From: Limnomonas spitsbergensis
Lineage: Eukaryota > Chlorophyta > Chlorophyceae > Chlamydomonadales
Reading direction: 5' to 3'
Assembly: GCA_037349105.1 (NCBI GenBank)
Contig: JAYJMM010000114.1
Span: forward strand, 5,633,501-5,697,500
Length of the DNA: 64,000 nucleotides
The notes below the pieces were generated by a model. It searched no databases and was not told the origin of the DNA. It saw only the letters and a program-made list of their open reading frames with translations. Positions 34,847 through 52,593 of this stretch are shown here, one piece after another (the first letter of the stretch is position 1; each line of letters starts with the position of its first letter). The position numbers and the translations under genes are program-made.

Positions 34847-35476
34847 TGTCACAGTATATTACAGTATACGTGACAGAACCGTTTAGACCGCAGTTAGCGG
34901 CCGCGGAGCCTCCGCAGCTTATCTGCGGAGTCTCCGGATTTGAGCTGAGACCTAGAAACCCGCTTACGCAGGATTAGTTTGACAGGTTCTACCGTACTCT
35001 GAACTGGGCCTGCCGGGTCCCTGTATCCCGGCAATTGCCTTGGCTACTTACTTCGTCCCTTTCTAAAGGACAGACCTCTATTTGTAACAAGCACCGGCAG
35101 TCTTTGAGACCAGCAGCTTCCATATAAGTCAGTACCTTAACTCGAGTCAAGCCTAGCTCAGCCACCGCTGATCTAGCTGGAGACAAGTACCCCAGTAAGA
35201 GAAACGAGACTCTGCAGAAGAAGAAGTACGCAGCCTCGTCCCGTCCGTCTCTCCGCGTGTTACGCGGTAAGTGTCCTTAACATAGCCCTGCTGGATCGCG
35301 ACCAGACGGCCAGAAGGCCTATGCCCCCAAAGTCTGTTGCTATATATACACAATATCCACCTAGCTGCTTAACTCGAAGAGCACTCGCAGCCAGTGAGTA
35401 GTCACTGAGCCTGCCCGTAGGCGTCCGTCACTGCAGTGAGGAAAGAAGTCCGCCACGGACCTGAAGCGCACCTCGC
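34847..35476 (+). repeat. Terminal repeat block C1 (630 bp)
   Basis: Identical to C2 (50906-51535) except for one base. It contains a hairpin CTCCGCAG/CTGCGGAG (34910-34930), a TGTAA poly(A) signal of the green-algal type at 35083-35087 and a TATATATA run at 35341. It starts with TG but is not followed by block A, unlike the right-hand copy. Confidence 0.95.
35050..35072 (+). promoter_or_regulatory. Candidate self-primer segment inside block C1
   Basis: A 23-nt segment (begins ACTTCGTCCC, ends AAAGGACA) whose exact reverse complement sits immediately after block C1. The equivalent in C2 is 51109-51131, just upstream of the TGTAA signal at 51142. Confidence 0.6.
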
Positions 35477-35477
35477 G

Positions 35478-35500
35478 TGTCCTTTAGAAAGGGACGAAGT
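35478..35500 (+). promoter_or_regulatory. Candidate self-complementary primer-binding site
   Basis: Begins TGTCCTTTAG and ends GACGAAGT, one base after block C1, and is a perfect 23-nt reverse complement of 35050-35072. It occupies the place of the primer-binding site in LTR elements. It is absent after C2, so it belongs to the internal region. I saw no obvious tRNA 3'-end match (TGG + tRNA tail) instead. Confidence 0.6.
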
Positions 35501-36175
35501 GGATCTAGCCTGATCAGCCTGATTTGCCAATTCCTGCTAAAGGTGCTTGTGCAGCGAGATTGGAATTTTGTTTGTATGCAAACAACCTTGGACAGCATAT
35601 GAATTGCACTTTGCTGTGGTAATCTCCATAGAGAGTGCCAAGTTAAGCCCTGAGAATCACTAAGAGTGGCAACTTAGTGTTGAGTCCAGGAGAGGCTTGA
35701 GGATCTGGCTGTGGATTTATACACCCAGCAGATAATTCCTGTATGACTGCAGATTGAGATCAGGTGGATCCAATCATTCATCATTGACAGAAGTAAACTT
35801 GTTGACAGATCATCCAAGGTTAAAATTTTGTGGTGTACCAAAGGATCCCCGCAGGTGTCAGAGAGGAACTGACACAGCGCAAGATCCGCCAGGAGGCAGA
35901 CATCCGCAGGGGACGTGCGCCAGCTAGAGGCAGCCCAGCCAGCAAAGGTGGGAAGGGGCTAAAAAAGGGCGAAGGAGGATTCCGCCAGATACAAATATTA
36001 GTGAGCATAAAAGCAGAGGGCAAGGCCTATCGCGCAAAATTGCTGTACCTGCCGTCCAGCCTTGACTAGCAGATCCTCACCAGGTTGCAGTAAGGATAAG
36101 GAGCAGAAGCCTAAACGTTAGCAGGTTTTGTAGGGGGTGTCGCCAGCACGCCTGCAGAACAGTGCGGTTCGTAAA
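35501..36175 (+). other. Retroelement 5' leader
   Basis: About 675 nt between the candidate primer-binding site and the first ATG of the giant ORF. The frame 35830-36069 is open but has no ATG start at its beginning and no recognisable domain. A leader this long could hold packaging signals; none can be named. Confidence 0.5.
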
Positions 36176-39100
36176 ATGCCTGTAGAGATGACAGGCATAG
36201 ATCTAAACCCCGATAGGCACCAGCACCCTGACGTCCAACGGAGGAGTGGGCGTCTGAGGGGGCTGGAGCCGGGAATAGACCTAAAAAATGCTAGTGCTGA
36301 GATTGTGGCAGAAGCCCTGTTGATAGCGGAAAAGCTGTCAGAGCCAGTAGAACCGCCCGCAGAGGATTGCAGGGTACGTGAGCCAGACCGTGTACCACCC
36401 AGAGGGGCAGGGGCGCAAGCAGATGGTGCAGTACTAGTAACACGAAAAGGCATTGGTCGAGGGGGTCCGTTGCCCGCTGGTTCCGACAGCTGTCTGAATT
36501 TCGAGCAGGGGCAGACTCAAGCGGGAACCCCAGAGTTGATCTTGGATCAAGCTACGGAAGCATCCCAGAGCTGTGACACGCGACAGAGCAGTGCACCTGA
36601 GGCCGAGCCGCAGCAGAGCCTGCCCAGGGTGGCAAGTGTTACACAGCAGGTTGAAAAAGATCCCAGCCAATCGGGTCTAAGGGCAGAAGTAGCCGCAGCT
36701 TCAGACAAGTTTGCAGGCTGGCATAAGACCTGCGAAGTCAAACCTCGAATAAAGACGGAGGGAGATGGGGCCAGGATTGTGCCTGCAGAGGTCAAACACG
36801 AGGAAGATGAGCCACAGCCAGCAGCAGGCAGACAGAGCTCGCAGGCAGGCAAGGACAGGGAGAAACCAGCTGAGCCGGTAGGGAAGCCTTGGGCTGATCT
36901 ATCCGAGGAAGAACAGCCAGACCCAGTTCAGGAAAAGCAGGGGCAGCAGACTACAGCAGAACTGCGTCCCGTGCAGCAGCTGCAGCCGCGCAAGGCACTG
37001 GTTAGAAGAGGAGCTGGATCCACAGTCTTCGGCACACCGCTGTCCAGTTTTCCACCCAGCGTGAACAGACCTGCGCAGACGTCCAAGGAGGGATCTGGCA
37101 GCCAGAGGCAGAGAGAGCCAGAGCGCTCGGAGACCGGGGGAGTCGCGTGCGGAAATGAGGAGGTAGAAGGGCCGATCGGTTGGGCAGGAATTGTGCAGTG
37201 GGCAACAGACCTGTGGAAGCAAGTGTGCTCCAGGACGTTCTTGCATTTCCAGGACCAGGTCACAGCCATTGAGGAGTTCAAGGCCCATCATCTGCGGGGA
37301 TGGGCAACAAAGGCCATGTTGGGTATCCCCCACACAGGTCTGGACAGGGCGCTACTGTTAGCCGCCCTTGGACAGGTATCCAAGGGAAGGACGGGACACG
37401 AAGCAGCCAGGGCTGTTAAAGCCTTCGCAGACGAATGGTGCAAAGAGGTCACAGGAGACCAGGAGGAACCTGGGTCAGAACCAGAGGATGAGGAGGACCA
37501 GGTGTGGGAAGGATTTGAAACAGGGGTGCAGCGGCCTGAGGGGATCAGGGAGGTGCAAAGGTGGCAGCAGCAGGCAGGAGCCGCGCCAACACCAACACTC
37601 AGATCTGCAGCCTTCGAGGTCAGCAGCGAGCCCAGCCTCAGAGGACGGCCAAGGGGCAGGGAAGCACCCAGAGCCAGCAGTCCAGCCGCCAGCGAAAGGG
37701 CGGAATTGACTAGCCAATCACTTGCCAGAATGGCAGAGCAAAGCACAGCGACACGCAGAGCAAGCAGGCAAGAGTCTTATGAGTTGCTGCGCATAGTCGA
37801 GGACAAAGAGAACGCATACCAGGAAACCCAGGTGGATTACATCAAGGAATTCCTGAGGAACAGGCAGCCAGGCGCGGCAAGAGGAGCTAGGAGGAATGAG
37901 CCTGCAGGCAGCGCACAGAGCAGTGGCCCAAAAATACAGGAGACCAAAGAGGAAACACAGTCTGATTCCTACGCCAGGAATTACACAGGCGGGACGCAGC
38001 CAGGTCGGCAGAGCCGGGAGCCGCCCAGGGGGCAGGCATACTCCAGGGAACAACCTCACCAGCATAGCCAAGAGCCGCCCAGAGGACAGGCAGAGGGCAG
38101 GGAACAGCCAAGCCAGCAGAGCCAGGAGCAATTAAGGGGACCAGCGGAACGCAGCAGAGGTGTGCGGCAGGAATGGCAAGACCAGGAGCTGCCCAGGGGA
38201 CAGGCAGAGCCCGGCAGAGCACAGCCGTGGAGACCTGGATCTGACAGCAGACCAAGCAGAAGCGAACCAGAACGACCGCCACCCGAAGGAAGTAGAGGCT
38301 CGGCAGGCAGAGCGGGCAGACAGCCATCACGAGACGCTCACGATCATGATGAGGATTATAACAGACATGACAGGTATCAGTCAGGCCGCAGCCCATCGAG
38401 GGGCGGCAGTGGAGGACCTAGGTCGCGGTCAGGGTCAGTAGATTCGGGACCAGGGGGAGCGGACAGACGCAGGCCAGGAGCCAGACAGGAGTCCAGCGAC
38501 CAGGAAATGAAAAGGCTCGATCGGGAGCAGGCGAGGGTGAACCTGCAGCTGCAGCAACAGATGGTATTGCAGCTGGCAGGGGTAGCCAAGGTAGCCAAGA
38601 TCCCAGCCATCCAAGGCAACGTACCAGTCCTGGATATGTCACACCCAGGAGCGGTTGCAGCCAGAAAGTATTGCCAGGCGTGTGGGTACTGGGGATCGCA
38701 CAACAGGTTGGCAATGTCAGATGACCAACCAGCATTGGCCGTGGTGGCAGGTGAAATAGCTGGATCATGCCAGTCGCCGTCAGCTATGACGTTGCTGATC
38801 AAGTCGCTGGTCAAGCTGTGGGACAGCAAGCCTGCCAGCATGAGGCCGCTGATGGCAGCCATCAGGGCAGCGCCCCACGCAGGAAACAGAATTGCCAGAG
38901 AGGTGGAGCGGATCGGACAGCAGTGGATAGCCCCAGCGGAGCAGCAGGGTTGCAAAGCTTCGCTGCTCACGTTGTGGATCAGGGTGGTCCAGGAGGAGGT
39001 GGGAAAGCCAACTTCAGAGGAGAGGACGGCCATCACCAACCTCAGGCTAGGAGTAAAAACTACTCTAGACCCGGACGTCAAGCCAGAGGAGACGGTGGAA

Positions 39101-42100
39101 GCATTTGCTCACAGAGTACTGACAACGGCAGAGTTGCTGCAGATCTCAAGGGATGCAGTAGATCACTTCGGCAGAAGCCACTCGGTCTCGCGCATGTTCC
39201 ATGACGGACTCCCAGCGGTTGCTAGAGCCAAGCTGAGCAAGTTCGTTATGACGGTGCCAGGGTATCTCAGCATGAGCGATGAAGACCAAATCGCAGTACT
39301 CACGCAGCAGGTGGTGCTGTGGGAGAGGTTTGCCCTGGAAATGGGTGACCTGGGAGGTACCGGCTTCAGGCAGGTAACCAACAGCGGGCCTGGCCAGGGA
39401 GAGGCACAGCCCAACAGGGGCAGGAGAGAGAGAGCAGGACAGTGGGAGATGCGAACACGCCTTGATGGAATTGTGCACCCCACAGGCTCAGCAGCAGTAC
39501 CACAGGCGCGGATGGATGGTAAACCCAGAGGAGTTACCTGGGCGGACCAAGCAGGGGCGGCAAATTACAACGCTGAGGGTGGCTCAAGCGCAGCCAAGGC
39601 ATGCTACCAGTGCGGTAGTACGTCGCACCTAGCCAGGGATTGCAGGGCGCCCAGGGCCAGGGATGAGCGCAGACCTATGCCCCTGGTTACAGACATCACA
39701 CCTGGACCGGCCAGACAGCCGCAACAGCAGTATCCGCAGCAACAGCAGTATCCCCTGCCGCCAAGGCCGCAGCAGGGACAGGCGGCAGGCAGGTCGTATG
39801 ACAGGAATCAGAACAATAGACAGTATCCTAGGCCTGGGCCTGGCCAGGGAGGTCAGGCGCAGCAGGCAGCCCACGTGTCGCATCTCAGCAATGCAACGGG
39901 GCAGGCTGAGCCAGAGGGATGGCACCAGACCATGGCAGAGATGCTCAGCGAGTCCGTAGCACTCATGACGCAGGTTGGGCTGGTACCCAAGCCTGCAGGT
40001 TTCAAGCAGGCAGTTCATAACGCCCGTCCTAAGTCGTTTTTGCCAGAACCTTTGCAGGAGGAGGAACCAGTACCAGGATTCACGGTACAACCCTCCAGGA
40101 AGGGAGCAAAGAGGCTGGTATTGAGTAAACTAGCTGACGATATGTCTGACATCCGCCTACAGGTGTTCAAGTTGAACGAGCGGCTCTCAGCGCTGTCGTT
40201 CACCACGATGCCCATGGGAGGAGACAACACCGGCCACAGGGGTGAGACTAGTAACACCAGGCCAGAGGGTAGAACGGTGACGGCTGCACCCAAGCTGCAG
40301 TATTTCAAAAATGACAGAAGCAACCTGGAGCAGTGTGTGGGACTTATGGTCAATGGGAAGGTCCTGGTGGCTCAGAAAGCACTCATGGACTCCGCATGCA
40401 CGTGCCATGTCATCACTGTCAATATTGCAGAGCAATTAGTTGCCATGGGGGCGGAGCTGGTGCGTACAGACGAGAAGATTCGTACCACAGACAATGCAGG
40501 GGCAGATCTGTATGGAGTACTGTTCATTTATGTGGTGTATGGATACGGAGGGCCCAATGCCATTATGGAGCCCACGGTGGTCAGGGTCGTTAAGACACCA
40601 CCGGATGCATATGAGCACTTGGTAGGGAACCCAGAGTTCCTCAAGTATAACGGGGTCTTAGAGGCAGCAGGAAGGCTGACCTTACGGTTCAGAGAGGGCC
40701 CACAGAGAGTGCAAGGGGTCAAGGACCTTACGCTGCCACTACTGCGGGCATCTCCGGCAGGGGGGTACCAGGCAGCAGCAGTGGCATGGGCAGGAATTCA
40801 GTGTGGATTCGCAGAAAGAGAGGGGTGGCCAGCTGCAACAGTTGAAACAGAGCACGAACCGCTCTTACAGCATTCCATGGCCACACGCGCAGGTACCGCT
40901 ATGAGGGCCGAACAGGGCGCAGGACCCAGCAGCGAGCCAAACCCCAGGCTACAAAGGCGCAGGCCGGTGCCAGTCGAAGCAGCAGTGGAAGAGACCGCCA
41001 CACCAACCGCAGAGGAGATGGCAAGAGCGCGCAGAGCCGCGGAACTCTCTGACGTTGAGAAGAGGGCGGTCAGGGACTTCATGCCAGCATGCCCCGCCTA
41101 CCCGTGCGCCTTGTGCGGAAAACCAGACAAGCACGCGGTGGAGGAGTGTGAGAGGAGGATTCAGGACTTTTCGCGGACACCCGAAACAGCGCCTGCGGTG
41201 CAGGCAGGGCCGCCTGCAGCGCAGAGGAGGGGATACGGCACAGCTGCAGCCGATAGAGCTGCACAGGCAACTTCAACGCGCAGCAGGGGAGAGCAGCAGC
41301 AGCAACAGCAGCAGCTGCAAAAGCAACCGCAGGTGGCAGGGCCTAGAGTGCAGCAGGCCAGCAGCGGCAAGGGTAGGCAGGCGCAACAGCAGCAGGGGCA
41401 AGGAAAGCCAGGGGCGGCAAGGGCCCCCGCGCAATCAGCCAGCAACAGCGAAGATGAGGCGCAGGAAGCAGAGGAGGAGGAAGATTGCAGCGTAGAGAAG
41501 GTTCCAGAGCCAGGGACCAGCCCACAAGACAGGCAAATCAACAGGCTGGCAGGGCAAGTCAACGGGCTGAAAAAGGCTCTAAGATGGAGAGAGCGGCAAA
41601 TGTGGAAGCAGTCAGCAGAATTTGTGGATTACCTGAAAGGCCAGCTGGCTGGGTGGAAGGTCATCACGGATGGTCAGCAGGTCATGACAACGGTCCAGCG
41701 AGAGTACATCCTGCGGGCAGAGGAGCTGACCGGGCTGCAGGAGGCCCTGGGACTACAACACTTGGGGGGGCCGCCAAACCACGGGCAGCCGCTCCCATAC
41801 GAAACAGACCCAGAGTTGGCGGGGTGCGTCAGGGCAATGTTGGCGACTCCGTCCCCGCTACGAGACGTGGACAGCGAGCATTCCGGCATGGAGGAGCCGA
41901 AGAAGCGCAGTCCTTCTAGCAGCGACGAGAGCGGCTCAGGGGACAGAAGGCTACGACGGCGCAGCAGAAGCGCGCAAAGGGCCATCAGTGAGGAGCGCCA
42001 AGGGGCGGTGCCAACGCCGGCAGCCAGGACCCAGCGGCAGGGCGCAGGGAGGCGCAGCAACAGCGAGGAAAGGAGCAGGGACCGCAGACAGCGGTCACCA

Positions 42101-45100
42101 TGCAGGGACCAGCCCAGGGGCAGATCCAGGGAACGGCACCATGCTGAGGTTGCCAGGCCTTACAGGCAGGGGCAGGAGCACCAGAGAGGCCCAGGCCCCG
42201 GGCCGACAAACAGAACCCTGGCAGAGGGCAGCGGGGCGGCAGAGCCTAGGCGTCACCTGGGACCGCGCCATGGTGGATTGTGCTTCAAGTGCAATCAGCC
42301 GGGGCACTTTGCCAACGAGTGCACCAACCCGGAGCAGGCCGGGCTGACAGGCGACAGGCCAGGGGCGCCTGCAGGCCCAGCACGGGGCTATGGAACCTGG
42401 GGCCCAGGCAGGGGCCAGGGGATGCCCATGGAGAGCAGGCGCAGGACCTTCGATACTGCCATGGGAACTCCCAGTGCAAGGGACTTCCAGCAGGGGGCAG
42501 CAGGCCCCAGCGCGTGGCCAGAACCGCCAGCGCGACAGGAACCACCGGAGGGCGAGCAACCAAGGTGGGAGGGGACAGGAGGCCACACGTGCTTCATGAC
42601 AGGCCACATGGGAATTAGCCAGGACAGAGATGCCTACCAGGCTGAGGTCAGTCAGGCAGGACCAGTTCAGGTGGCCCCTCAGAGGGTGCCAGAAGGGCAG
42701 GTAGCCAGTCAGGTAAGCCACTGGGCGATGGCTGTAGAGGCGTTAGCCATGAACCATTATGGGACTATGCCTGCAGGGTCGGCCAGATCCGTAGCACATG
42801 CGTTGGAGTTCTTGAAGGATCTCCAGAGGAGGGGGTGCCCAGCTCCGTGTGTAGGATGGCCAAATCTGATGCAGAGGTTCCTAGACAGGGAATGGGACAA
42901 GTATGATGAGCAGTGGGATGAGTTTGAGAGACGCGAGCGGGAGGCAGTACCCCAGCACGACGTAGACGGGTGGGATACCGATTCAGGATCCAACCTTTCA
43001 GCAGGCAGATATGAGCCTCAGGAACCCTCGCCCTTGCATGAAAGAGAGTTTGGCGTGTTATGTCCAGGTACCCCGGAGGGCAATCAAGACACAGGCAGAG
43101 GGGTAGCGGGAGCAGCCGCCGAGACAGAGGAGCCACACAGAGCGGGGTTGCGACTCCCAGCGGCCAGAGGGACCGCAGCAGGGAGCCAGCTGGACGCTCG
43201 GGCGGGGCCCGTTAGGACCCATAAAGGCACCAGCTCTCGGTGCAATGCTTGGGGAGGAATCGACGAGGACGGAGAGACACAGCACGGCAGCGAGAGGGAA
43301 GGGAGGTCTGACGCAAGGGGCGAGGACAGGCAGCTTGACCAGTCCTTCAGCAGAGACAGGTCCTACAGCAGAGAACGCATCTACATACAGCCGTTCCCGC
43401 AGTCGCTGCCAGCAGGCGAACCCTTTGTGCAGTACTTCCGCCTGGGGGAAGAGATGCCAGAGGCGTCCACCTCCGGGGCCATGCTGACTATGCCAGGGGA
43501 GTGCAGGGACGGGCCATGTCGGTTGCAGAACCATAGGCTCCTGGACGGCGGAGAGCAGACATGTGTTGACAGGGCAGCAGCCATGCAGGCAGTTGCCAGG
43601 ATGATTTTCCCGTGGGACGCAGTGACAGCTGTCATGCTGGGCGCTGCGCTCAAAGGATACATCCTGCCCAGCACAAATATAGCAGATTACATGCAGAGGG
43701 GATGGTCGCGGCACCCCATCTATGCATACTGCGTTAGCGAGATGGTGAGTCTCGCCATTGCAGCAGGCATCACAGCGGTGGATGCAGCATGCTGGGCGCA
43801 CCCGGACATGCCAGACATTGCGCCAGCCGAGGGGATGTGGCAGGGCGCGCAGCCAGGATTCATGCGCACACCGTGGGCGATGGATTGTGTCCGTGAGCTG
43901 ATGGGGCACCCAGCCCTCAGAGACCGCGCATTTTATGTGCCAGTCCAAGCCATGGGCGAATTCGAGAGATTTGTGGAAACAACAGAGCAGGCCCCAGTGA
44001 GGGCAGGGCTGTGTCACCCAGGCAGGCCAGGGCGGTGTGAGGCGACCATAGAGGCGTCCATCGTCATCCCCAGGACGGTCGCAGGACAAGCAGTGCCGTG
44101 GGGGCCAGCGCCAGGGGACGCCAGGGCAGCCATTCCAGTCCAGCAGCTAGTAACTTACTACTATGAGGAGATGGCTGATGAGGAGTTGCCCGTTTCATCG
44201 GCATGGATCCACATGCACGCGACTCACGATGATATGCCCGTCTACCTGTTTGCAAGGCACCAGCAGGACGTGGCAGTCACTAAGTGCGCGTCAGTAGACA
44301 AGGCGGAGTTCCATGCCTATACCTACGCTAGGGGAGCAGACCCGGCAGTGTGGACGCTCATGCTAATGGCGCTGCAGAGGGTCCTGCTCCCAGGACAGCG
44401 ATCAGCGGCCATGCGGCATGTGTGGGGCGTAGAGGATCAGTGGGCGCCTACAGAGGTAACAGCCTGTCCAACATGGCCTTACGGACCCCAGCAGTCGCCA
44501 GCATCAGGAGCCATGTGGGAAGGAGAGGAAGAGCTGGCGAGCTCGCCGTTCGCAGTAGAACGCCTGGCAGCATATGTGCACCAGTGGGTGCGTCAGGAGC
44601 GGAGGGCGTGGCACGACAACAGGGCCAGCAGCGTGCTGCCCTATTGGCAGGCTGACGTCATAACGACGCAGTTGTGGAGACAAGCGCACCCAGCAGGGGT
44701 GCGCACGCTGCACCCTCTGTTCAGAGGAGCAGGGGAAGTAGGCATCGAGGAGGAGTTGGAGGACTTGAGGAACCAGCCGAGTAGGGGACATGGGCCGGTG
44801 GGCAGGCGAGGCGCCGATGCAGAGGAGCCAGCGGCAGCCACCGACGGCCCTGTCCAGGATGAGGAGCCGGAATGGACCCAGGCGGCATTTGTAACATTTG
44901 GGGCGGCAGCAGCCTCATGGGAGCTGCTGGAGTATGTGGACGACTTGGGGGTATCAGCACTGGAGGCTGAGCCTAGGGGACGGGCAGAGCCCCAGGCGCC
45001 CCTGGACAGTGTCGGCACATCGCCCACGGAGGACTCAGACAGCAGGATCCCAGAGCTCAGCGACAACGTTTCAGAGGGCCCACCACCACTGGTTGAGATC

Positions 45101-48100
45101 ACCGAGTCAGATGAGGAGTGGCACGAGGCAGGAGCCAGGCCCTCGGACCAGGATAGCGTCACCAGAGCAGAGGCTCGGGATGCAGAGGGCAACTACATGC
45201 CAGCAGACAGCGGCCCAGGACCAGGAAGTCCAAGGTACGGCATGGTGGGAGAGCTGCCACAGCTGAGGCGCGCGTGGATGCGCGGCATCTTTCAGGAGCA
45301 GGCAGCAATGAAAGAGCGCAGAAGCAGGAGGGCCGCTATAGAGCTCGGTAACGGGATCACGCTGGAGGAGGAGGCAAACCAGGTCACAGCGGGGGTCAGC
45401 CATCAGCATGCAGCAGACCAGCGCGCTTGCAGGACCGAGGGGGCAGCAGCAGGCAAGGAGAGCAACGGGCGCCCAGGAGACCCCCAGATCAGCCCGCCAG
45501 CACAGACAGCGGCACAGGGGCCTTGGGGTGACCCAGCAGCGTACAGCACGGGACGCTGGGTTGCAGTGCTCAGGAACTTTGTAGATCAGCTGGACGTGCT
45601 ACGAAGGCAGGACATGGGGCAGCAAGAGGCGGGCCAGGAGGCTAGCCTGCTGTTCCGACTTAAAATGCTACCACAGCCCGATCCGGACCCCAGGATGGGA
45701 GGTTACAGCAGGGCAGTCAGGGAGCTACAGGAGGAGCTGACGGAGAGAGTATCAGCCCTCTACACGAGGAGAGCAGAAGGAGCGGACACCCAACAGCCGT
45801 CGGACAGCCGCAGCAGACAAGCCCAAACCGGCAGGGGCGAGGACCTCGCCAGAAGGGTTGCCGGCGCGCGGGAAACCATACGACGGGGCTGTGGGCAAGA
45901 TGAGCCCGCGGGTGCAGGCAACAGCGAGGCTGTGCAGCGCGCCAACCACAGGCAGGAGAGGATGGCACAGTGCAGCACAGGACAGATCCCAGGAGCAGGG
46001 CCAGAAAGGGCCAGTGCAATTTGGGCTGACACTGCCAAGTTGCAAGGAAAGAAGTCTAAGAAGGCCAGGAGACGCGCGGGAAAGGCGCAGAGGGCGGCCG
46101 CGGACAGGAACCGAGGCAGCAGACCAGGATTGGACTGCCCAGCCCTGCCACTCAGGGTCAGCCAGGTAGACCTGGAGATCACGTGGGCCAGAGGACAGCA
46201 GCCGCCAGCGCAGATTGCAGAGCCAGGCGTTCAGCCCGCAGAACAGTTACCGCAGCAACCCATGAGGAAGACGACAGCGTGCAGAGGACTCCTCACCTGT
46301 ACAGCAATTAAAGGGATCCTTACGGGGGCGCTCCAGCTGATACTGGTGTGGCTTCTGCTGTCGGTGTGTGTGCCGGGGGCGCAAGCTACCGGGCAGGGAG
46401 TGCGAGGAGGAGGATTTACAGCAGGCCAAGGTGCTTTTGTTTCTGGAAGGGAGGCAGCAGCAAAGCTGTCGTCTGGATGGTTGCGCCCACCGGCTGTCAG
46501 CTCCATGAGGGACACCGGCGGGAGGGGCGCATGCAGCCAGCAGGAGAGATGGCACAACGGCAGCACCACTGGCGAGGAAGAGCTGCCCGCGGTGGACGAC
46601 CCGCAGGCGGCTGTGGTGATCGACATGTTTCAGCCGGGGGGAGTAGTGGAGCCACCCGCAGAGTACGTCAAGACCAAGGAGGGATGGCTGCTGGGCAAGC
46701 ACCCCGACTTCACTGCGGAGCAGCAGGAGAGCCTGGAGCAGAGCCTCAGGGATCGCCAAGGAGCATTCGCTTACTCCATGGAGGATCTACCAGGCTACTG
46801 CGGCACGCAGGGCCTGGATACAGCTTGCCTGTCAAGTGGGGCTGTGCGGGCCATGGAGACCGAAGGAGTCGTCCTCTTCGAGCCTTTTGGAGGTATGTGC
46901 TCAGGGCTGGAAATGGTACTCAGGGCAGGTATCCCAGTAGTGCGGTACTTGTATGCAGATATCAGTGAGGAAGTCAGAGAGATCGCAGGGGGTCGCCTGT
47001 TGCAGTTGCACAAGAGATTCCCCCAGTTGCTTCCGGTCAGAGCGTTTGATAAGGCTTTCAGAGCGTTGCCGCAAGATGTGTATGCCATTACGGCAGAACA
47101 CCTCAAGGAGGCGGGTGCCCAGGAGGGGCGCCAGTGGTTCATGGTAGCAGGCTGGGAGTGCCAGGACCTTTCGTCAGCTGGCAAGGGGCGGGGGCTCGCG
47201 GGAGAGAGAAGCAAGTCTTTCTTCCCGTTAGTCAAGCTGTTGGGTACTCTGCAGTTCCTGCAGGGACCTAGGCCGCCAGCGTACCTGATTGAGAATGTAG
47301 CAATGCAATTGAATCAGAAGAGTGAGAAGGCCAGTGTTGAGGCTTTTCAGGAAGTGTGCAGGATTCTAGGGACACCGGCGTTGTTTGACGCAGCGCAGGT
47401 GGGGTCTTACGCCCACCGCACCCGCAACTATTGGGGGAATATTGCCCCCGCAGCAGATATTGAATTTGTGATTCGTGCGTCGACCAGACCCCACGAGGGG
47501 ATTGTAGACGACATTCTGGACAAGGGCAGCAAGGCCCAGGTAGTATCATGTCCGGACAATGGGGGGTACCGCATCAATGTCACAGGGCAACCCAGGAAGG
47601 TGCTGCCGTGTTTGATGGCCACGCCCTCATCATATGCTTTCCGGAACGGGCAAAATGGGATGGTGTACAGGCCCATGGGGGACTTGCAGGAGCCCAACGC
47701 AAACGAGCGTGAGCGCGCCATGGGGTACGCTGTGGGGTCCACATTGCCGCGCCCAGACTTCCCAGAGGCAGCCAGACGGGCAGCCTTGGGCAGGTGCATG
47801 GATTCATGGGCACTCAGTGCATGGCTCAATGTGGCACTCGAGTGTGCTAAGATCATGCCAGCAGAATTGACGCGCAGGGCAAAGCTGCCAGGCCAGGACA
47901 GGGACCCAGTGCTGGGGGCGACTTTAATGTCCAGCCACTATGCCCTTGCTACTGCAGGCAACGCGTGCTCTGGCAGCGGGGAAGCGGCCGCGTCATACAG
48001 ACAGTGCCTGGGAGAATCGGCCGCGGCAGACTGGGCCGACGCGGCACAGGAACCAGGTGGGAACGCGTCTGAGGCACAAGTTGATGTTGAAATCAGAGTA

Positions 48101-49969
48101 ACCAGGGAAATAGAGAGTGAGAAGGACCAGCCAGGTTGTCCTGCAGGACCGTCGGCTAGGGTTGATGTGTGGGCAGATGAGCCCGTCTTGAGGTTTCTCC
48201 GTGAAAAGACTTATGTCCAGGGAACAGAGCTAGGAGAACAGACTAGAATACAGCGCAGAGCAGCGCCATTCCAGTGGGAATCAGAGAGGGGAGGAGTCCT
48301 GATGAGACTCATGCCTGATGGTAGACGTTGTGTGGTGCCCAGGCCAGAAGACAGGCTAGCAGTGATCCAGACAGCGCATGCAGGTACGGGCCATTTCGGC
48401 AGCCACCGCACGGCTTTCATGGTCATGCAGCAGCATTGGTGGCGGGGGCTTCGAGCAGCAGTCAAGAAGGCGGTGCAGGAATGCGGTGTGTGTGACAGGG
48501 CCAGGGCATCCACGTTCAATCACATACAGCCCAACCTGCACCCGCTACCCATTGAGGGGTTGTTTTTCCGGTGGGGAGTGGACCTGTGTGGTCCATTCAC
48601 GACCACTTCCAGGGGAAATCGGTTTGTGATGGTGTGTGTGGAGCATTACTCCAAATGGGTGGAGTTGATCCCCATTCCAAGCAAGGCGTCTGATGTGACG
48701 GCCTTGGCATTCTTTCAAAATGTTGTTGCACGATTCGGGGGATGCGCAGAGGTGGTGACAGACCAGGGAACAGAGTTCCAGGGTGAATTTCAGGACATGT
48801 TGTTGGACTGCTTCATTGACCATCGCACCACTTCTGCCAACCACCCCCAGGCAGACGGGCTTTCCGAGAGGGCTGTCCAGACCCTCAAGGCAGGCCTGCG
48901 CAAGTGCTGCGAGGAGGGCAGCAGCGACGAGTCCTGGGACAAGATGGTGCCCTGGGTAGCCCTTGGCTTCCGATGCTCGCCGCAGCAGGCCACGCGCATG
49001 GCGCCGTACGAGGTGCTGTTCGGACAGAGACCCACCTTCCCCTCCAGAGTGGGAGCGGACCTCTGGAGCACAGCCAAGGTGGCAACGGCAGAGGAGGCAG
49101 CAGACCTGCTTTTGGCCAGAGTGGCCAGGATCAAAGAGGCACTGCCAGTCGCGGGTGAGCATCTAAAAATTGCGCAGCACCGCGACAAGCTGCGATATGC
49201 ACGCATTCGTGGGGGAGGGTATGTCCCCCAGGTCAGGCGTTTTGCAGAGGGAGATTACGTGTATGTGAAGTATTCGTCAGAGCGACGCAGCCTCGATCCC
49301 AAGGCCAGGCCTGAGATCCTCAGGGTAAAAACACTGGGGGCGACGGGAACTTTGGTGCTGGAAGGGGCAGATGGCCTCACAGTTACAGAGAATGCAGTCA
49401 ATTGTTCCCCATGCCACTTGCCCAACCTCAGGGGAGTGGTTGATTTCAGTGGAACCAGACCCAATAACAGCCTGTCATGCGAGGTGTGCCAGCTGCCCGA
49501 TCGCGGAGAGGTGATGCTCTTGTGTGATGCCTGCAATACAGGTTGGCACATGGACTGCTTGGTACCAGTACTCGAGGAGGTGCCTGAGGGAGAGTGGTTG
49601 TGCCCACACTGCATGCCGGAAGACAAGGGAGCTGGGCCCGCTGCAGTAGCAGGGCCCCCCACAGAGGAGCGCAGTTTACAGGTCCAGGGGCGACCGAGCC
49701 CAGCGGCCAGAGCGGCTGCCAGGACAGCCCAAAAGGCCGACGTCATGGACAGGCCTGAGGTGGAAGTCATGGCCACCAACCCAGCAACAAGGCAAATGGA
49801 GCGGGGCATCGCAAGACCAATGGCGAACGGGTTGTATGACATCTCGTACACCACTGGCCGGGGAGAGGCCAATGTCACCCCGAGAGCAGTTACAAGAAGG
49901 GCCAAGGTGGCCAAAGAAGCAGCAAGGGAGGAAGAGGAGTCAGCCCTTGAGGATTTTACCGGGACCTGA
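36176..49969 (+). CDS. Gag-protease-methyltransferase-integrase-PHD polyprotein, no reverse transcriptase
   Basis: 4597 codons without a stop; first ATG at 36176 (the frame extends upstream only to a GTG at 36137). Landmarks, numbered from this ATG: gag-like helical region about 775-1062; zinc knuckle CYQCGSTSHLARDC at 1143; protease-like ALMDSACTCHVI with D1405; a degenerate knuckle at 1644; coiled coil about 1787-1864; perfect knuckle CFKCNQPGHFANEC at 2036; an uncharacterised globular region about 2270-2860; a signal-like membrane segment 3363-3400; pre-RT motif (FAYSMEDLPGYCG) about 3500-3543; C5 cytosine methyltransferase 3565-3895 (FEPFGG, C3662, ENV at 3706, RTR at 3748); integrase HHCC finger H4068/H4073/C4103/C4106 and DDE triad D4136, D4196, E4231; a C-terminal SH3-like stretch; PHD finger 4435-4479. 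The slot after DLPGYCG, where RT and RNase H normally sit in gypsy elements, goes straight into the methyltransferase. Low-complexity Gln/Arg/Gly-rich linkers are abundant. Confidence 0.92.
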   Translation: MPVEMTGIDLNPDRHQHPDVQRRSGRLRGLEPGIDLKNASAEIVAEALLIAEKLSEPVEPPAEDCRVREPDRVPPRGAGAQADGAVLVTRKGIGRGGPLPAGSDSCLNFEQGQTQAGTPELILDQATEASQSCDTRQSSAPEAEPQQSLPRVASVTQQVEKDPSQSGLRAEVAAASDKFAGWHKTCEVKPRIKTEGDGARIVPAEVKHEEDEPQPAAGRQSSQAGKDREKPAEPVGKPWADLSEEEQPDPVQEKQGQQTTAELRPVQQLQPRKALVRRGAGSTVFGTPLSSFPPSVNRPAQTSKEGSGSQRQREPERSETGGVACGNEEVEGPIGWAGIVQWATDLWKQVCSRTFLHFQDQVTAIEEFKAHHLRGWATKAMLGIPHTGLDRALLLAALGQVSKGRTGHEAARAVKAFADEWCKEVTGDQEEPGSEPEDEEDQVWEGFETGVQRPEGIREVQRWQQQAGAAPTPTLRSAAFEVSSEPSLRGRPRGREAPRASSPAASERAELTSQSLARMAEQSTATRRASRQESYELLRIVEDKENAYQETQVDYIKEFLRNRQPGAARGARRNEPAGSAQSSGPKIQETKEETQSDSYARNYTGGTQPGRQSREPPRGQAYSREQPHQHSQEPPRGQAEGREQPSQQSQEQLRGPAERSRGVRQEWQDQELPRGQAEPGRAQPWRPGSDSRPSRSEPERPPPEGSRGSAGRAGRQPSRDAHDHDEDYNRHDRYQSGRSPSRGGSGGPRSRSGSVDSGPGGADRRRPGARQESSDQEMKRLDREQARVNLQLQQQMVLQLAGVAKVAKIPAIQGNVPVLDMSHPGAVAARKYCQACGYWGSHNRLAMSDDQPALAVVAGEIAGSCQSPSAMTLLIKSLVKLWDSKPASMRPLMAAIRAAPHAGNRIAREVERIGQQWIAPAEQQGCKASLLTLWIRVVQEEVGKPTSEERTAITNLRLGVKTTLDPDVKPEETVEAFAHRVLTTAELLQISRDAVDHFGRSHSVSRMFHDGLPAVARAKLSKFVMTVPGYLSMSDEDQIAVLTQQVVLWERFALEMGDLGGTGFRQVTNSGPGQGEAQPNRGRRERAGQWEMRTRLDGIVHPTGSAAVPQARMDGKPRGVTWADQAGAANYNAEGGSSAAKACYQCGSTSHLARDCRAPRARDERRPMPLVTDITPGPARQPQQQYPQQQQYPLPPRPQQGQAAGRSYDRNQNNRQYPRPGPGQGGQAQQAAHVSHLSNATGQAEPEGWHQTMAEMLSESVALMTQVGLVPKPAGFKQAVHNARPKSFLPEPLQEEEPVPGFTVQPSRKGAKRLVLSKLADDMSDIRLQVFKLNERLSALSFTTMPMGGDNTGHRGETSNTRPEGRTVTAAPKLQYFKNDRSNLEQCVGLMVNGKVLVAQKALMDSACTCHVITVNIAEQLVAMGAELVRTDEKIRTTDNAGADLYGVLFIYVVYGYGGPNAIMEPTVVRVVKTPPDAYEHLVGNPEFLKYNGVLEAAGRLTLRFREGPQRVQGVKDLTLPLLRASPAGGYQAAAVAWAGIQCGFAEREGWPAATVETEHEPLLQHSMATRAGTAMRAEQGAGPSSEPNPRLQRRRPVPVEAAVEETATPTAEEMARARRAAELSDVEKRAVRDFMPACPAYPCALCGKPDKHAVEECERRIQDFSRTPETAPAVQAGPPAAQRRGYGTAAADRAAQATSTRSRGEQQQQQQQLQKQPQVAGPRVQQASSGKGRQAQQQQGQGKPGAARAPAQSASNSEDEAQEAEEEEDCSVEKVPEPGTSPQDRQINRLAGQVNGLKKALRWRERQMWKQSAEFVDYLKGQLAGWKVITDGQQVMTTVQREYILRAEELTGLQEALGLQHLGGPPNHGQPLPYETDPELAGCVRAMLATPSPLRDVDSEHSGMEEPKKRSPSSSDESGSGDRRLRRRSRSAQRAISEERQGAVPTPAARTQRQGAGRRSNSEERSRDRRQRSPCRDQPRGRSRERHHAEVARPYRQGQEHQRGPGPGPTNRTLAEGSGAAEPRRHLGPRHGGLCFKCNQPGHFANECTNPEQAGLTGDRPGAPAGPARGYGTWGPGRGQGMPMESRRRTFDTAMGTPSARDFQQGAAGPSAWPEPPARQEPPEGEQPRWEGTGGHTCFMTGHMGISQDRDAYQAEVSQAGPVQVAPQRVPEGQVASQVSHWAMAVEALAMNHYGTMPAGSARSVAHALEFLKDLQRRGCPAPCVGWPNLMQRFLDREWDKYDEQWDEFERREREAVPQHDVDGWDTDSGSNLSAGRYEPQEPSPLHEREFGVLCPGTPEGNQDTGRGVAGAAAETEEPHRAGLRLPAARGTAAGSQLDARAGPVRTHKGTSSRCNAWGGIDEDGETQHGSEREGRSDARGEDRQLDQSFSRDRSYSRERIYIQPFPQSLPAGEPFVQYFRLGEEMPEASTSGAMLTMPGECRDGPCRLQNHRLLDGGEQTCVDRAAAMQAVARMIFPWDAVTAVMLGAALKGYILPSTNIADYMQRGWSRHPIYAYCVSEMVSLAIAAGITAVDAACWAHPDMPDIAPAEGMWQGAQPGFMRTPWAMDCVRELMGHPALRDRAFYVPVQAMGEFERFVETTEQAPVRAGLCHPGRPGRCEATIEASIVIPRTVAGQAVPWGPAPGDARAAIPVQQLVTYYYEEMADEELPVSSAWIHMHATHDDMPVYLFARHQQDVAVTKCASVDKAEFHAYTYARGADPAVWTLMLMALQRVLLPGQRSAAMRHVWGVEDQWAPTEVTACPTWPYGPQQSPASGAMWEGEEELASSPFAVERLAAYVHQWVRQERRAWHDNRASSVLPYWQADVITTQLWRQAHPAGVRTLHPLFRGAGEVGIEEELEDLRNQPSRGHGPVGRRGADAEEPAAATDGPVQDEEPEWTQAAFVTFGAAAASWELLEYVDDLGVSALEAEPRGRAEPQAPLDSVGTSPTEDSDSRIPELSDNVSEGPPPLVEITESDEEWHEAGARPSDQDSVTRAEARDAEGNYMPADSGPGPGSPRYGMVGELPQLRRAWMRGIFQEQAAMKERRSRRAAIELGNGITLEEEANQVTAGVSHQHAADQRACRTEGAAAGKESNGRPGDPQISPPAQTAAQGPWGDPAAYSTGRWVAVLRNFVDQLDVLRRQDMGQQEAGQEASLLFRLKMLPQPDPDPRMGGYSRAVRELQEELTERVSALYTRRAEGADTQQPSDSRSRQAQTGRGEDLARRVAGARETIRRGCGQDEPAGAGNSEAVQRANHRQERMAQCSTGQIPGAGPERASAIWADTAKLQGKKSKKARRRAGKAQRAAADRNRGSRPGLDCPALPLRVSQVDLEITWARGQQPPAQIAEPGVQPAEQLPQQPMRKTTACRGLLTCTAIKGILTGALQLILVWLLLSVCVPGAQATGQGVRGGGFTAGQGAFVSGREAAAKLSSGWLRPPAVSSMRDTGGRGACSQQERWHNGSTTGEEELPAVDDPQAAVVIDMFQPGGVVEPPAEYVKTKEGWLLGKHPDFTAEQQESLEQSLRDRQGAFAYSMEDLPGYCGTQGLDTACLSSGAVRAMETEGVVLFEPFGGMCSGLEMVLRAGIPVVRYLYADISEEVREIAGGRLLQLHKRFPQLLPVRAFDKAFRALPQDVYAITAEHLKEAGAQEGRQWFMVAGWECQDLSSAGKGRGLAGERSKSFFPLVKLLGTLQFLQGPRPPAYLIENVAMQLNQKSEKASVEAFQEVCRILGTPALFDAAQVGSYAHRTRNYWGNIAPAADIEFVIRASTRPHEGIVDDILDKGSKAQVVSCPDNGGYRINVTGQPRKVLPCLMATPSSYAFRNGQNGMVYRPMGDLQEPNANERERAMGYAVGSTLPRPDFPEAARRAALGRCMDSWALSAWLNVALECAKIMPAELTRRAKLPGQDRDPVLGATLMSSHYALATAGNACSGSGEAAASYRQCLGESAAADWADAAQEPGGNASEAQVDVEIRVTREIESEKDQPGCPAGPSARVDVWADEPVLRFLREKTYVQGTELGEQTRIQRRAAPFQWESERGGVLMRLMPDGRRCVVPRPEDRLAVIQTAHAGTGHFGSHRTAFMVMQQHWWRGLRAAVKKAVQECGVCDRARASTFNHIQPNLHPLPIEGLFFRWGVDLCGPFTTTSRGNRFVMVCVEHYSKWVELIPIPSKASDVTALAFFQNVVARFGGCAEVVTDQGTEFQGEFQDMLLDCFIDHRTTSANHPQADGLSERAVQTLKAGLRKCCEEGSSDESWDKMVPWVALGFRCSPQQATRMAPYEVLFGQRPTFPSRVGADLWSTAKVATAEEAADLLLARVARIKEALPVAGEHLKIAQHRDKLRYARIRGGGYVPQVRRFAEGDYVYVKYSSERRSLDPKARPEILRVKTLGATGTLVLEGADGLTVTENAVNCSPCHLPNLRGVVDFSGTRPNNSLSCEVCQLPDRGEVMLLCDACNTGWHMDCLVPVLEEVPEGEWLCPHCMPEDKGAGPAAVAGPPTEERSLQVQGRPSPAARAAARTAQKADVMDRPEVEVMATNPATRQMERGIARPMANGLYDISYTTGRGEANVTPRAVTRRAKVAKEAAREEEESALEDFTGT
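39602..39643 (+). other. CCHC zinc knuckle 1
   Basis: CYQCGSTSHLARDC fits CX2CX4HX4C, the nucleic-acid-binding knuckle of gag proteins, directly after the helical gag-like region. Confidence 0.9.
42281..42322 (+). other. CCHC zinc knuckle 2
   Basis: CFKCNQPGHFANEC fits CX2CX4HX4C about 890 residues after the first knuckle, after an Arg/Ser-rich stretch. Two widely spaced knuckles suggest a duplicated or composite gag. Confidence 0.9.
46868..47860 (+). other. C5 cytosine DNA methyltransferase domain in the polyprotein
   Basis: Motif I is LFEPFGGMCSGLE. The motif IV region is VAGWECQDLSSAGKGRGL, with the catalytic Cys but Glu in place of the usual Pro before it. Motif VI is YLIENVAMQ and the motif VIII region is AHRTRNYWGN. 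The C-terminal RCMDSWAL resembles motif X-like ends. Methyltransferases are known in some algal gypsy elements; whether this one is active is unknown. Confidence 0.88.
48377..48868 (+). other. DDE integrase domain with HHCC zinc finger
   Basis: The HHCC finger ends ECGVCDRARA. The catalytic core has WGVDLCGPF (D4136), VVTDQGTEF (D4196) and HPQADGLSERAVQ (E4231). The D-to-E gap is 34 residues, one fewer than the usual 35 of gypsy integrases. Confidence 0.95.
49478..49612 (+). other. PHD finger at the polyprotein C-terminus
   Basis: Cys4-His-Cys3 pattern: CEVCQLPDRGEVMLLC, CNTGWHMDC and GEWLCPHC. PHD fingers read histone H3 tails, so it may steer integration, much as chromodomains do in chromoviruses. 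Confidence 0.92.
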
Positions 49970-50672
49970 AGCCCGGAGCGGCAGGGCCGCTGAGCCATGA
50001 CGTCACCCACGCCGTAGCTGGCAAGGAGCGGGCAGGCACCTACAGAGCAGAAATGCAGACGCAGTGCGGCTTGTCCTAGTACCCAGTAGGCAGCGGGCCG
50101 GCAGCCAGCGGACCGAAAACGGAAGATGCAGGAGTAGAGTTACGTCAGCTTAATGAAAATTTGTTTCTCGAATACCGTGGCAGCAAGGCTACAGTAGTAC
50201 ATAAGTTGTGAAAATGATGAGCGAGGAGAATTAGTCAACTCGAGCAATTATAGCACAGCAGGGGGCAGATCACGCTGCTACGGCGCACATTTTCTGTGGC
50301 CTTTAAAGACCAGGCGGCTATGGCGCAGTGGGGCGAGAGCAGCGGTTGTTCTTAGCTTGACCTGATAACTTTGAAATTTCACTGTTTGCTAGCCAGTAGT
50401 GGGCTGAACAGCTTGAGTTTGTAGGGTTCTGCGCATTGCGCTTCAGCTGAAACTCGGTTGATTTTTTTATTTCTGATTTGAAGAAGGCCTGAACCAGGCA
50501 GATTTTAGAAGGCCCGAACCAGGCAGATTTGTAGAAGGCCTGAACCAGGCATATTTGCAGATGATGATTTGAGCTTCTACATACATATTTTTCCAGAAGT
50601 TTATTTCAGTACCACCCCTTTTTCCGGCTCCCCGCGCATGCCTGGAGGGCTTAACGCTGGGGAGCGGGGGGC
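49970..50672 (+). other. Retroelement 3' untranslated region with purine-rich tract
   Basis: Non-coding. It holds three copies of a roughly 33-bp repeat (GAAGGCCTGAACCAGGCA) at 50479-50560. It ends in the G-rich tract 50659-50671 (GGGGAGCGGGGGG), the likely polypurine tract for plus-strand priming, directly before block A1. Confidence 0.65.
50659..50671 (+). promoter_or_regulatory. Candidate polypurine tract
   Basis: Twelve of 13 bases are purines, and it lies immediately upstream of block A1. The sequence just before block C2 is not purine-rich. By the primer rules, the 3' LTR would therefore begin at A1. Confidence 0.6.
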
Positions 50673-50903
50673 GAGTAAAGTAGTAGGGGCGGTACCCACG
50701 AGACGGAGACTTCCAGGCAGAGATATCCAGTTAGGGACTTCCAGATACAGTTATCTTGTTGACACACTCTTGTCTGAAGTACAAGGAGCATGAGTGTACG
50801 GTGATGTACCGTGTTTGTGAGTAGAGGACACCTCTCTAAGGTGTCCTGACCGGAGTTTACGGTATTTACCATAGTATTGCAGTTACTGCTTTATGGTGCG
50901 ACA
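50673..50903 (+). repeat. Terminal repeat block A1 (231 bp)
   Basis: Identical to A2 (51538-51768). It starts GAGTAAAGTAG and ends GTGCGACA. A perfect hairpin AGGACACCT/AGGTGTCCT lies at about 50824-50846. Its end abuts C2 through GC, forming the palindrome GACAGCTGTC. Confidence 0.95.
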
Positions 50904-50905
50904 GC

Positions 50906-51535
50906 TGTCACAGTATATTACAGTATACGTGACAGAACCGTTTAGACCGCAGTTAGCGGCCGCGGAGCCTCCGCAGCTTATCTGCGGAGTCTCCGGATTT
51001 GAGCTGAGACCTAGAAACCCGCTTACGCAGGATTAGTTTGACAGGTTCTACCGTACTCTGAACTGGGCCTGCCGGGTCCCTGTATCCCGGCAATTGCCTT
51101 GGCTACTTACTTCGTCCCTTTCTAAAGGACAGACCTCTATTTGTAACAAGCACCGGCAGTCTTTGAGACCAGCAGCTTCCATATAAGTCAGTACCTTAAC
51201 TCGAGTCAAGCCTAGCTCAGCCACCGCTGATCTAGCTGGAGACAAGTACCCCAGTAAGAGAAACGAGACTCTGCAGAAGAAGAAGTACGCAGCCTCGTCC
51301 CGTCCGTCTCTCCGCGTGTTACGCGGTAAGTGTCCTTAACATAGCCCTGCTGGATCGCGACCAGACGGCCAGAAGGCCTATGCCCCCAAAGTCTGTTGCT
51401 ATATATACACAATATCCACCTAGCTGCTTAACTCGAAGAGCACTCGCAGCCAGTGAGTAGTGACTGAGCCTGCCCGTAGGCGTCCGTCACTGCAGTGAGG
51501 AAAGAAGTCCGCCACGGACCTGAAGCGCACCTCGC
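50906..51535 (+). repeat. Terminal repeat block C2 (630 bp)
   Basis: Second copy of block C, here between A1 and A2. It is not followed by the 23-nt complementary site that follows C1. Confidence 0.95.
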
Positions 51536-51537
51536 AT

Positions 51538-51768
51538 GAGTAAAGTAGTAGGGGCGGTACCCACGAGACGGAGACTTCCAGGCAGAGATATCCAGTTAGG
51601 GACTTCCAGATACAGTTATCTTGTTGACACACTCTTGTCTGAAGTACAAGGAGCATGAGTGTACGGTGATGTACCGTGTTTGTGAGTAGAGGACACCTCT
51701 CTAAGGTGTCCTGACCGGAGTTTACGGTATTTACCATAGTATTGCAGTTACTGCTTTATGGTGCGACA
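51538..51768 (+). repeat. Terminal repeat block A2 (231 bp), right end of the element
   Basis: Ends in GACA, the inverse of the TGTC left terminus, and is followed directly by AGAA. Confidence 0.95.
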
Positions 51769-52593
51769 AGAATTCAAAACATGAGCCAGACTGCCTGCCT
51801 GGAATGACTGACACGGGGCAAATTCGCCAATTATGATTGTACGGACTCAAAGGAATTCGACCCTCGTTTAGGTCGCTGGGGGCCTCCGCCGAAAAGGTAG
51901 ATACAAAAATACACATGAAGGCAGTGTAGCCGAATGCAGGCTTCAAGATCGAGGAGGCAAGCTCAATGGGAGGCTTCCTCAAACCCTGCCCCACGGGCCA
52001 TTGGGGGAGGGTTTCAGGAAGAAAGAAAGCTACGCCTTTTTTGGGCGTGGAGATTAAGGAAACAATGCAGCTTGGGGCCGTAGCCACACCCGCGCCGTTA
52101 CCATATGCAATTGGCATATGCCATTGGCGTATTCTTTTCTCTATTCACCGTACATAAATACGGTACAGTCAGAAGGTACGGTGCGTGCGTTTGTTAGATC
52201 AGACCCTCAGCCACAAAAAATAAGGACCCCAACTGGCCTTAGAGAATCTACATGCATGCATACACCTTTGCCATTCAAAACACAATGGCAGATCAGGCCG
52301 TGATGCCCCACCCATGCATAATCTGCCTGCCCCCCACGCATGGGCCCAAATTGGCCCCCCAAATACATCCTCCAGTTTTACATGCATGCACCTTTGCCAG
52401 GAAAAACATTTCGGCAAGCTGCCCCAAGTTGTTCTGAAAACGGATCCAGATATGCTTGCTGATCCATGTACCTGCTCGAGCCTGGCCCTAGAAAGAAAGA
52501 AAGAAAACTACGCCCCCCTAGGGTCTTGCGGGTTAAGGAAACAGCGCAGCTCGGGGCCGAAGCCACATCCGCACCCTTACCATACGCCTGGCC
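51769..52593. other. Right flank: diverged direct repeats, no gene
   Basis: Two segments (about 52015-52110 and 52485-52585) are diverged direct repeats (ACTACGCC, GGTTAAGGAAACAGCGCAGC, TCGGGGCCGAAGCCACATCC). A second pair shares CATGCATGCA and CACCTTTGCCA near 52250 and 52380. A TGTAA on the minus strand at 52378-52382 could be the poly(A) signal of the coiled-coil gene. Confidence 0.5.

Follow-up and report, generated by a model that had tools for sequence, protein, structure and literature searches.

A stretch of 64,000 nucleotides from Limnomonas spitsbergensis (contig JAYJMM010000114.1, positions 5,633,501 to 5,697,500 of the forward strand; hereafter the window) carries at 34847..51768 a retroelement whose two ends are built differently: the left end consists of one block, C, alone, and the right end of A, C and A, with a GC dinucleotide between the first A and C. 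Most of the integrated copies that we examined in this genome (260 Mb, 124 contigs) run C...A-GC-C-A. The element is probably a Ty3/gypsy-type retrotransposon in which the ends of the complementary DNA (cDNA) are joined to each other and the DDE integrase cuts an internal GACA/GC/TGTC site in the 5' copy of the repeat, not the cDNA ends.

Arrangement of the ends in the window and across the genome

The order of the parts in the window is C1, body, A1, GC, C2, A2. A single base among 630 distinguishes C1 (34847-35476) from C2 (50906-51535), and A1 (50673-50903) and A2 (51538-51768) are identical over 231 bases. The outer ends read TGTC...GACA and are flanked by AGAA on both sides; the GC is constant inside, between A1 and C2, and absent from both outer ends. 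The A1-GC-C2 border forms the palindrome GACAGCTGTC at 50900-50909. An initial annotation, made from the letters of this stretch, had described the block order and the palindrome and had judged that the outer ends look like true integration ends; these observations were borne out.

When A1-GC-C2-A2 was used as a query, it matched over its full 1096 bp, at 96-100%, in 40 places including the window (the best 40 of 2137 candidates scored, the 41st match being partial). Twenty of the 39 other places, picked by this A-C-A match, were fetched at both ends, giving copies of 15.1 to 18.7 kb. Nineteen left ends were located, all beginning with C, although one lacked the first 132 bases of its C1 block, and no A match was detected upstream of them in the fetched stretches; the twentieth left end lay beyond the fetched stretch. 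All 18 fetched copies whose two ends were intact had perfect 4-bp duplications, mostly different from copy to copy; the initial annotation had suggested checking other copies for such duplications and for a start with C and an end with A. Together with the window, 19 copies were readable at both ends, and every one was C...A-GC-C-A with a perfect 4-bp duplication. Identical long terminal repeats (LTRs) at both ends were seen in none of the 18. The palindrome GACA-GC-TGTC was present at A1/C2 in 20 of 20 fetched right ends, a sample picked by the A-C-A match. The 40 full-length matches and the duplications around fetched copies exclude an assembly error or a chance arrangement.

Counts made from other borders were the only test of the arrangement that was free of the A-C-A selection. 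Exact patterns for the A/C junction, for the border between C and the candidate primer site and for the border between the purine-rich tract and A1 occurred 508, 101 and 328 times, respectively, in the genome; reversed-pattern controls gave 4 for the A/C junction and 0 for each of five other patterns. The pairing of these lists covers 100 listed places on contigs C3-C34, and diverged copies escape exact patterns. In a census of 72 exact tract/A1 borders (up to position 1892785 of contig C34), paired with the A/C junction list, 64 right ends, read as far as C, carried A-GC-C, seven carried A alone and one was broken inside A. The A/C junction was exact in 54 of the 72 (52 within the tolerance of the script and two more at 204 bases) and variant in 10. 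The seven A-only ends led directly into other DNA, six stopping at GACA and one at GGCA; two extra right ends on contig C34, fetched beside the 18 unpaired census ones, were also A-only and had a flank common to both. For three A-only copies the left side was examined too, and all three had 4-bp duplications (GGCC, CCCC and CAAC). As to the placement of copies, three on contig C41 (3967493-4013328) are spaced exactly 19,649 bases apart, as in a tandem duplication, and contig C34 (3298544-3351609) holds four tract/A1 borders in 53 kb at uneven spacing.

To assess the polarity of the insertions, we searched with a composite of the A1 tail, GC, C2 and the sequence that follows C1, for which an insertion of the form C-A-C...A would rank top. 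This form was found in none of the 40 scored left ends, all of which begin 12 bases or fewer from the first base of C (the best 40 of 2423 candidates), and none of the 15 left ends in the paired lists had an A/C junction 631 bases upstream of the C/primer-site border. Plain A+C repeats at both ends, which the initial annotation had named as the finding that would speak against it, were looked for in the same 40 scored and 15 paired left ends without success. Because no C-A-C...A form is among them, it seems that of the two sites only the 5' one is cut.

A second, diverged family, reached through variants of the integrase motif and known from its right-hand repeats alone, comprises two stretches. 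In one of them (L071), A (763-996), GC and C are followed by A again (1631-1864, 99.6%), with the same GACAGCTGTC, and the repeat parts are 74-82% identical to the window where matched; the other (L070) has a single A match and no GACAGCTGTC. The suggestion that a whole family has a new terminal arrangement thus stood as far as the family is concerned (19 copies, 64 of 72 right ends, L071), and its novelty is limited by KnitGypsy-Dnmt3 of Klebsormidium nitens, for which a figure legend gives DIRS-like repeats with Gypsy domains (PMC5890265). Compared by description only, that element is similar in its Gypsy domain set, in a DNMT within the Pol frame and in its DIRS-type repeats (PMC5890265), whereas the text consulted in the same paper mentions neither a primer site nor a tract, and no palindrome, duplications, joints or mechanism either. 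Among open-licence PMC papers, this legend was the sole precedent found for such repeats, and no mechanism was found. Unusual terminal repeats also occur in TOC1 and TOC3 of Chlamydomonas.

Predicted cDNA ends and the C/A joint

Directly after C1 lies a 23-nucleotide candidate primer-binding site, TGTCCTTTAGAAAGGGACGAAGT, which is the perfect complement of positions 204-226 of C (35050-35072, ACTTCGTCCCTTTCTAAAGGACA); the complement is free of mismatches in 18 of 19 left ends and has one in the remaining end. Since the site matches a stretch inside C so precisely, priming is probably self-priming. Tf1/sushi elements are self-primed, and the present element would resemble them in that its candidate primer site can pair with sequence lying further upstream in its own RNA; the difference is that the complement is here 23 nucleotides long and inside C. 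A purine-rich tract, GGGAGCGGGGGGCG, stands directly before A1. By the rules for primer site and tract, the cDNA repeat would be A-GC-C with ends AGTAAAG and CTCGCG. The initial annotation had assigned A+C as the LTR on these grounds, and its assignment stands with refined borders: C is TGTC...CTCGCG (631 bp) and A is AGTAAAG...GACA (230 bp).

Green algae use TGTAA as a poly(A) signal. Its sole occurrence on this strand between 50001 and 51768 is in C2, and an RNA ending after it would leave A2 outside the RNA, to be remade in each round. Remaking of A2 fits the identity of A1 and A2 in 17 of 21 copies, set against a mean distance of 1.29% between copies. C1 and C2 differ at 0-3 of 630 bases in 19 copies, 11 of which have identical blocks.

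The C/A joint was variable. Among 75 exact-pattern places, 60 read CTCGCG/AGTAAAG, seven had an extra A, four an extra T and two an extra TG; one read CTCGCT, and one was the window, with CTCGC-ATG-AG. T and TG are the opening letters of the primer site, so that the +T and +TG joints fit one or two primer letters left on the minus strand. Five copies with minority joints (two +TG, two +T and the window) were compared with their relatives: for three, the nearest relatives, at 0.12%, carried the majority joint, and for the other two the nearest relative was at 0.7% in one case and 0.93% in that of the window. Because close relatives of minority-joint copies carry the majority joint, the joint looks as if it is remade in each round.

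Possible routes to the integrated form

In the cycle that we propose, transcription would begin close to 35050 in C1 and the RNA would stop beyond the TGTAA of C2, which would exclude A2 from it; the RNA would fold back and serve as its own primer. Reverse transcription would then take its standard course, using the tract before A1, and give a cDNA of the form A-C-body-A-C, whose ends, AGTAAAG...CTCGCG, would not be integrase sites. The C end would then be joined to the A start, at times with leftover primer letters (T, TG) or an extra A, and the integrase would cut each strand of the palindrome after CA, in a staggered way, so that a single step would produce both processed ends, with an overhang of 2 bases. 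Both ends would insert with a 4-bp stagger, and GC would be lost. Joining before cutting and cutting before joining would both be compatible with this scheme. The 5' repeat would become duplex soon after the second strand transfer and the 3' repeat once the whole body has been copied, about a body length of synthesis later; the earlier duplex state of the 5' site could account for cutting of the 5' copy only.

The element resembles Ty3/gypsy elements in the order reverse transcriptase (RT)-RNase H-integrase (seen in a sister copy, L049), in its H2C2 and DDE core domains and in its short 4-bp duplications, and its candidate primer site and purine tract appear to border the repeat as expected. 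It differs from them in that the integrated ends are unlike the repeat ends set by primer site and tract, and in that no full repeats flank the element. According to PMC11054761, retroviral-type integrases are now accepted to act on linear cDNA as the precursor, the Panganiban-Temin circle model having later been replaced and the circle-junction idea dropped in the late 1980s. For foamy virus, PMC1180852 describes two-LTR circles whose palindrome is cleaved by the integrase. That an integrase cuts a palindrome where a repeat has its border is thus reported there (PMC1180852) and proposed here; as these sources describe it, the retroviral palindrome arises where the cDNA ends meet, whereas ours lies inside the repeat, apart from the joint. 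The initial annotation had offered integration from a circular intermediate, which comes near our best explanation. A symmetric two-repeat circle would hold two identical sites, so that C-A-C...A would be expected about as often; as it stands it is ruled out, such forms being found in none of the 40 scored and 15 paired left ends.

Several observations weigh against our proposal. The one-sided polarity needs an additional asymmetry. Seven of 72 right ends are A-only, with 4-bp duplications in the three checked, and such copies may be A1xA2 recombinants or products of a direct double cut, a second route. Among the 100 A/C junctions listed, four pairs lie 869-884 bases apart, probably as A-C-A-C-A right ends (contig positions C4:3625458, C22:251541, C28:3837022 and C32:2269816), and this spacing could come from recombination or from longer joined forms. 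Finally, the +A joints (7 of 75), a class outside the copies compared, could be one inherited lineage.

Among the alternatives, the least improbable, which we nevertheless hold to be unlikely, is a variant of our proposal that reverses the two steps: the integrase would cut the 5' palindrome of a linear, unfinished cDNA and insert both processed ends, and at the target the free C end would be sealed to the free A start by host end joining, with no circle involved. It would cover the polarity and the ragged C/A joint together and the present data fit it as well as a circle, but the released 231-bp piece would have to remain in the complex.

Only slightly more doubtful is a cycle like that of DIRS, PAT and Ngaro elements but run by a DDE integrase and not by a tyrosine recombinase: the RNA would be C1-body-A1-C2-A2, the internal A1-C2 would be the template on which the circle is closed, and the integrase would open the A2/C1 junction. 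In PMC6681497, PAT, Ngaro and VIPER have split direct repeats with one block on the left and three on the right, and the block order A1 ... B1 A2 B2 given there agrees with such a cycle; those elements encode a tyrosine recombinase, whereas the window element has a DDE integrase and 4-bp duplications. A single polarity would also follow if the A2/C1 joint alone is cut. Against it, the primer site with its 23-nucleotide self-complement and the purine tract sit at their standard places, and the single TGTAA in C2 suggests that the RNA probably ends before A2. Such a cycle would moreover copy C2/A2 faithfully, yet C2/A2 is the joint that varies, and A1/C2 is the same in all 20 fetched copies. The scanned frames contained no tyrosine recombinase match; by Pfam search, neither the window frame nor the L049 piece had one, and a DDE integrase was found instead. 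To our knowledge, DIRS, PAT and Ngaro elements make no target-site duplication. A plain element of this kind is excluded by the 4-bp duplications and by the lack of a tyrosine recombinase match.

It is highly improbable that the primary insertion is C-body-A, made by double cutting, with the A-C-A end added later through cDNA recombination at A. The A-only ends and their duplications could be read in this way, but A-GC-C occupies 64 of 72 right ends, and A-only elements, having no downstream C for the first strand transfer, should be sterile. Hardly any weight is left for an ordinary LTR element with recombined repeats, or for a misassembly: recombination between A copies could explain the A-only and A-C-A-C-A ends, but the same form recurs at 18 other sites with 4-bp duplications, most right ends found by another border carry A-GC-C, a diverged family has A-GC-C-A, and a plain A-C...A-C element needs an A upstream of C1, where none was seen in the scored and paired left ends.

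Returning to cutting of the internal palindrome after or before joining of the cDNA ends, we give even chances to a wider claim, namely that a clade of giant DNMT-carrying Gypsy elements does without cDNA-end integration, its attachment site being one intra-repeat palindrome, used in the 5' copy only, and joined cDNA ends being obligate. If this is true, the clade would show in living form how integration can proceed through a repeat-repeat palindrome, and its RT-RNase H, coded in a removable intron, would be another peculiarity. The mechanism would be surprising if shown. The element is a natural high-copy one whose genomic copies seem to record cutting of an internal palindrome, which makes the circle-junction question testable, and a DDE-based route to the split-direct-repeat arrangement would mean that classification by repeats only can mislead.

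Coding capacity and other features of the window

The features of the element are listed in Table 1. By Pfam search, the single open frame of 4610 amino acids contains a gag-like part with zinc knuckles, a DNMT, an integrase and a PHD finger, and no match to RT or RNase H; a retropepsin-like stretch, DSACTCH, was recognized by eye only. The solved relatives of the DNMT domain are DNMT3A (E about 2e-5), and the nearest solved structure to the integrase part by sequence is Ty3 Gag-Pol (E 3.9e-18). The DDE integrase noted in the initial annotation was confirmed by the H2C2 and rve matches and by an acidic triad (D1788, D1848 and E1883 in L049 numbering) that is invariant in 12 aligned proteins. 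All 150 places scored for the integrase part (from 1302 candidates) matched it at a printed identity of 100%, three of them with one internal stop, and open frames at these places reach 5307 amino acids.

Table 1. Features of the element, with window positions
Feature	Positions	Strand	Remark
Left target-site duplication AGAA	34843..34846	+	sequence; same 4 bases at 51769-51772
C1, left terminal block, TGTC...CTCGCG	34847..35477	+	630 bp as first reported, 631 to primer-site border
Probable self-primer, ACTTCGTCCCTTTCTAAAGGACA, probably near RNA 5' end	35050..35072	+	perfect 23-nt complement of 35478-35500
TGTAA, putative, poly(A)-signal-like	35083..35087	+	C2 counterpart at 51142
Probable primer-binding site, TGTCCTTTAGAAAGGGACGAAGT	35478..35500	+	directly after C1; sequence
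Single open frame, 4610 aa	36137..49969	+	first codon of frame GTG; putative start only
Zinc knuckle, better of two (PF00098)	42278..42328	+	E 2.5e-9
Joint lacking 1731 bp (RT-RNase H) of sister copy	46808..46815	+	in frame; GT...AG borders in one of three registers
Cytosine-C5 DNA methyltransferase domain, approximate	46865..47830	+	PF00145, E 6.7e-5; borders estimated from alignment
Integrase zinc-binding domain (H2C2)	48347..48508	+	PF17921, E 9.2e-11
Integrase core (rve)	48572..48847	+	PF00665, E 4.9e-9
PHD finger	49478..49612	+	PF00628, E 1.3e-9
Purine-rich tract, GGGAGCGGGGGGCG, probable plus-strand primer	50660..50673	+	sequence, position only
A1 block, ends GACA; probable functional start AGTAAAG at 50674	50673..50903	+	
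GACA-GC-TGTC palindrome, proposed integrase site	50900..50909	no strand	in 20/20 fetched right ends
C2 block	50906..51535	+	
C2/A2 joint, CTCGC-AT-GAGTAAAG in window	51530..51544	+	60/75 places blunt, 15 other
A2 block, right end of element	51538..51768	+	identical to A1
Right target-site duplication AGAA	51769..51772	+	sequence

In the sister copy L049, RT and RNase H (RVT_1, E 3.9e-22; RT_RNaseH, E 6.8e-30) lie downstream of the gag part and ahead of the methyltransferase, with H2C2 and rve further on. The window lacks 1731 bases of this copy (L049 1877-3607), a multiple of three, and its frame stays open; the missing segment starts with GTGAGT and ends with CAG in one of three possible registers. 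The same gap joint was found in 41 places (9 + 32, in two sequence variants) and the intact donor in 164, and copies on contigs C79 and C123 share the gap joint yet have their own duplications, TACC and GGTC. The gap looks like the outcome of reverse transcription of a spliced RNA, although an ancestral deletion common to the copies could also have produced it. The RT-RNase H segment may possibly be a retained intron that turns Gag-Pol into Gag-integrase. Copies with the gap would need RT in trans. A Ginger-like DNA transposon without RT, raised by the window frame in which RT had no match, was dropped since L049 has RT-RNase H in frame.

Proteins related to Pol (120 listed of 213, from 7976 candidates scored) are 36-50% identical over the aligned parts; the named sources among those listed are Haematococcus lacustris (twice), Scenedesmus and Pleodorina starrii, all green algae, which by itself makes a green-algal host most likely. 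In viral contigs, the integrase search matched nothing, and a search with the protein alignment gave just three matches, all weak and to the DNMT part. At the thresholds used, the window contained no match to a tRNA or to an Rfam family.

Two more GACAGCTGTC palindromes lie in the coding region, at 36485-36494 and 43624-43633, where 0.03 are expected per element; the first of these recurs, at +1629 to +1639, in all 18 left ends that were checked. Outside the element, the minus strand of 21386-21452 matches about the first 70 bases of C at 84%, starting with TTGTCACAG, and may be one end of some relative that is older or short. The window also holds long tandem arrays. Over one of these, of 126-base units (4128-6821), Pfam matches pass as repeats only, no single stretch being significant; the other, at about 23789-25370, consists of 12-base units.

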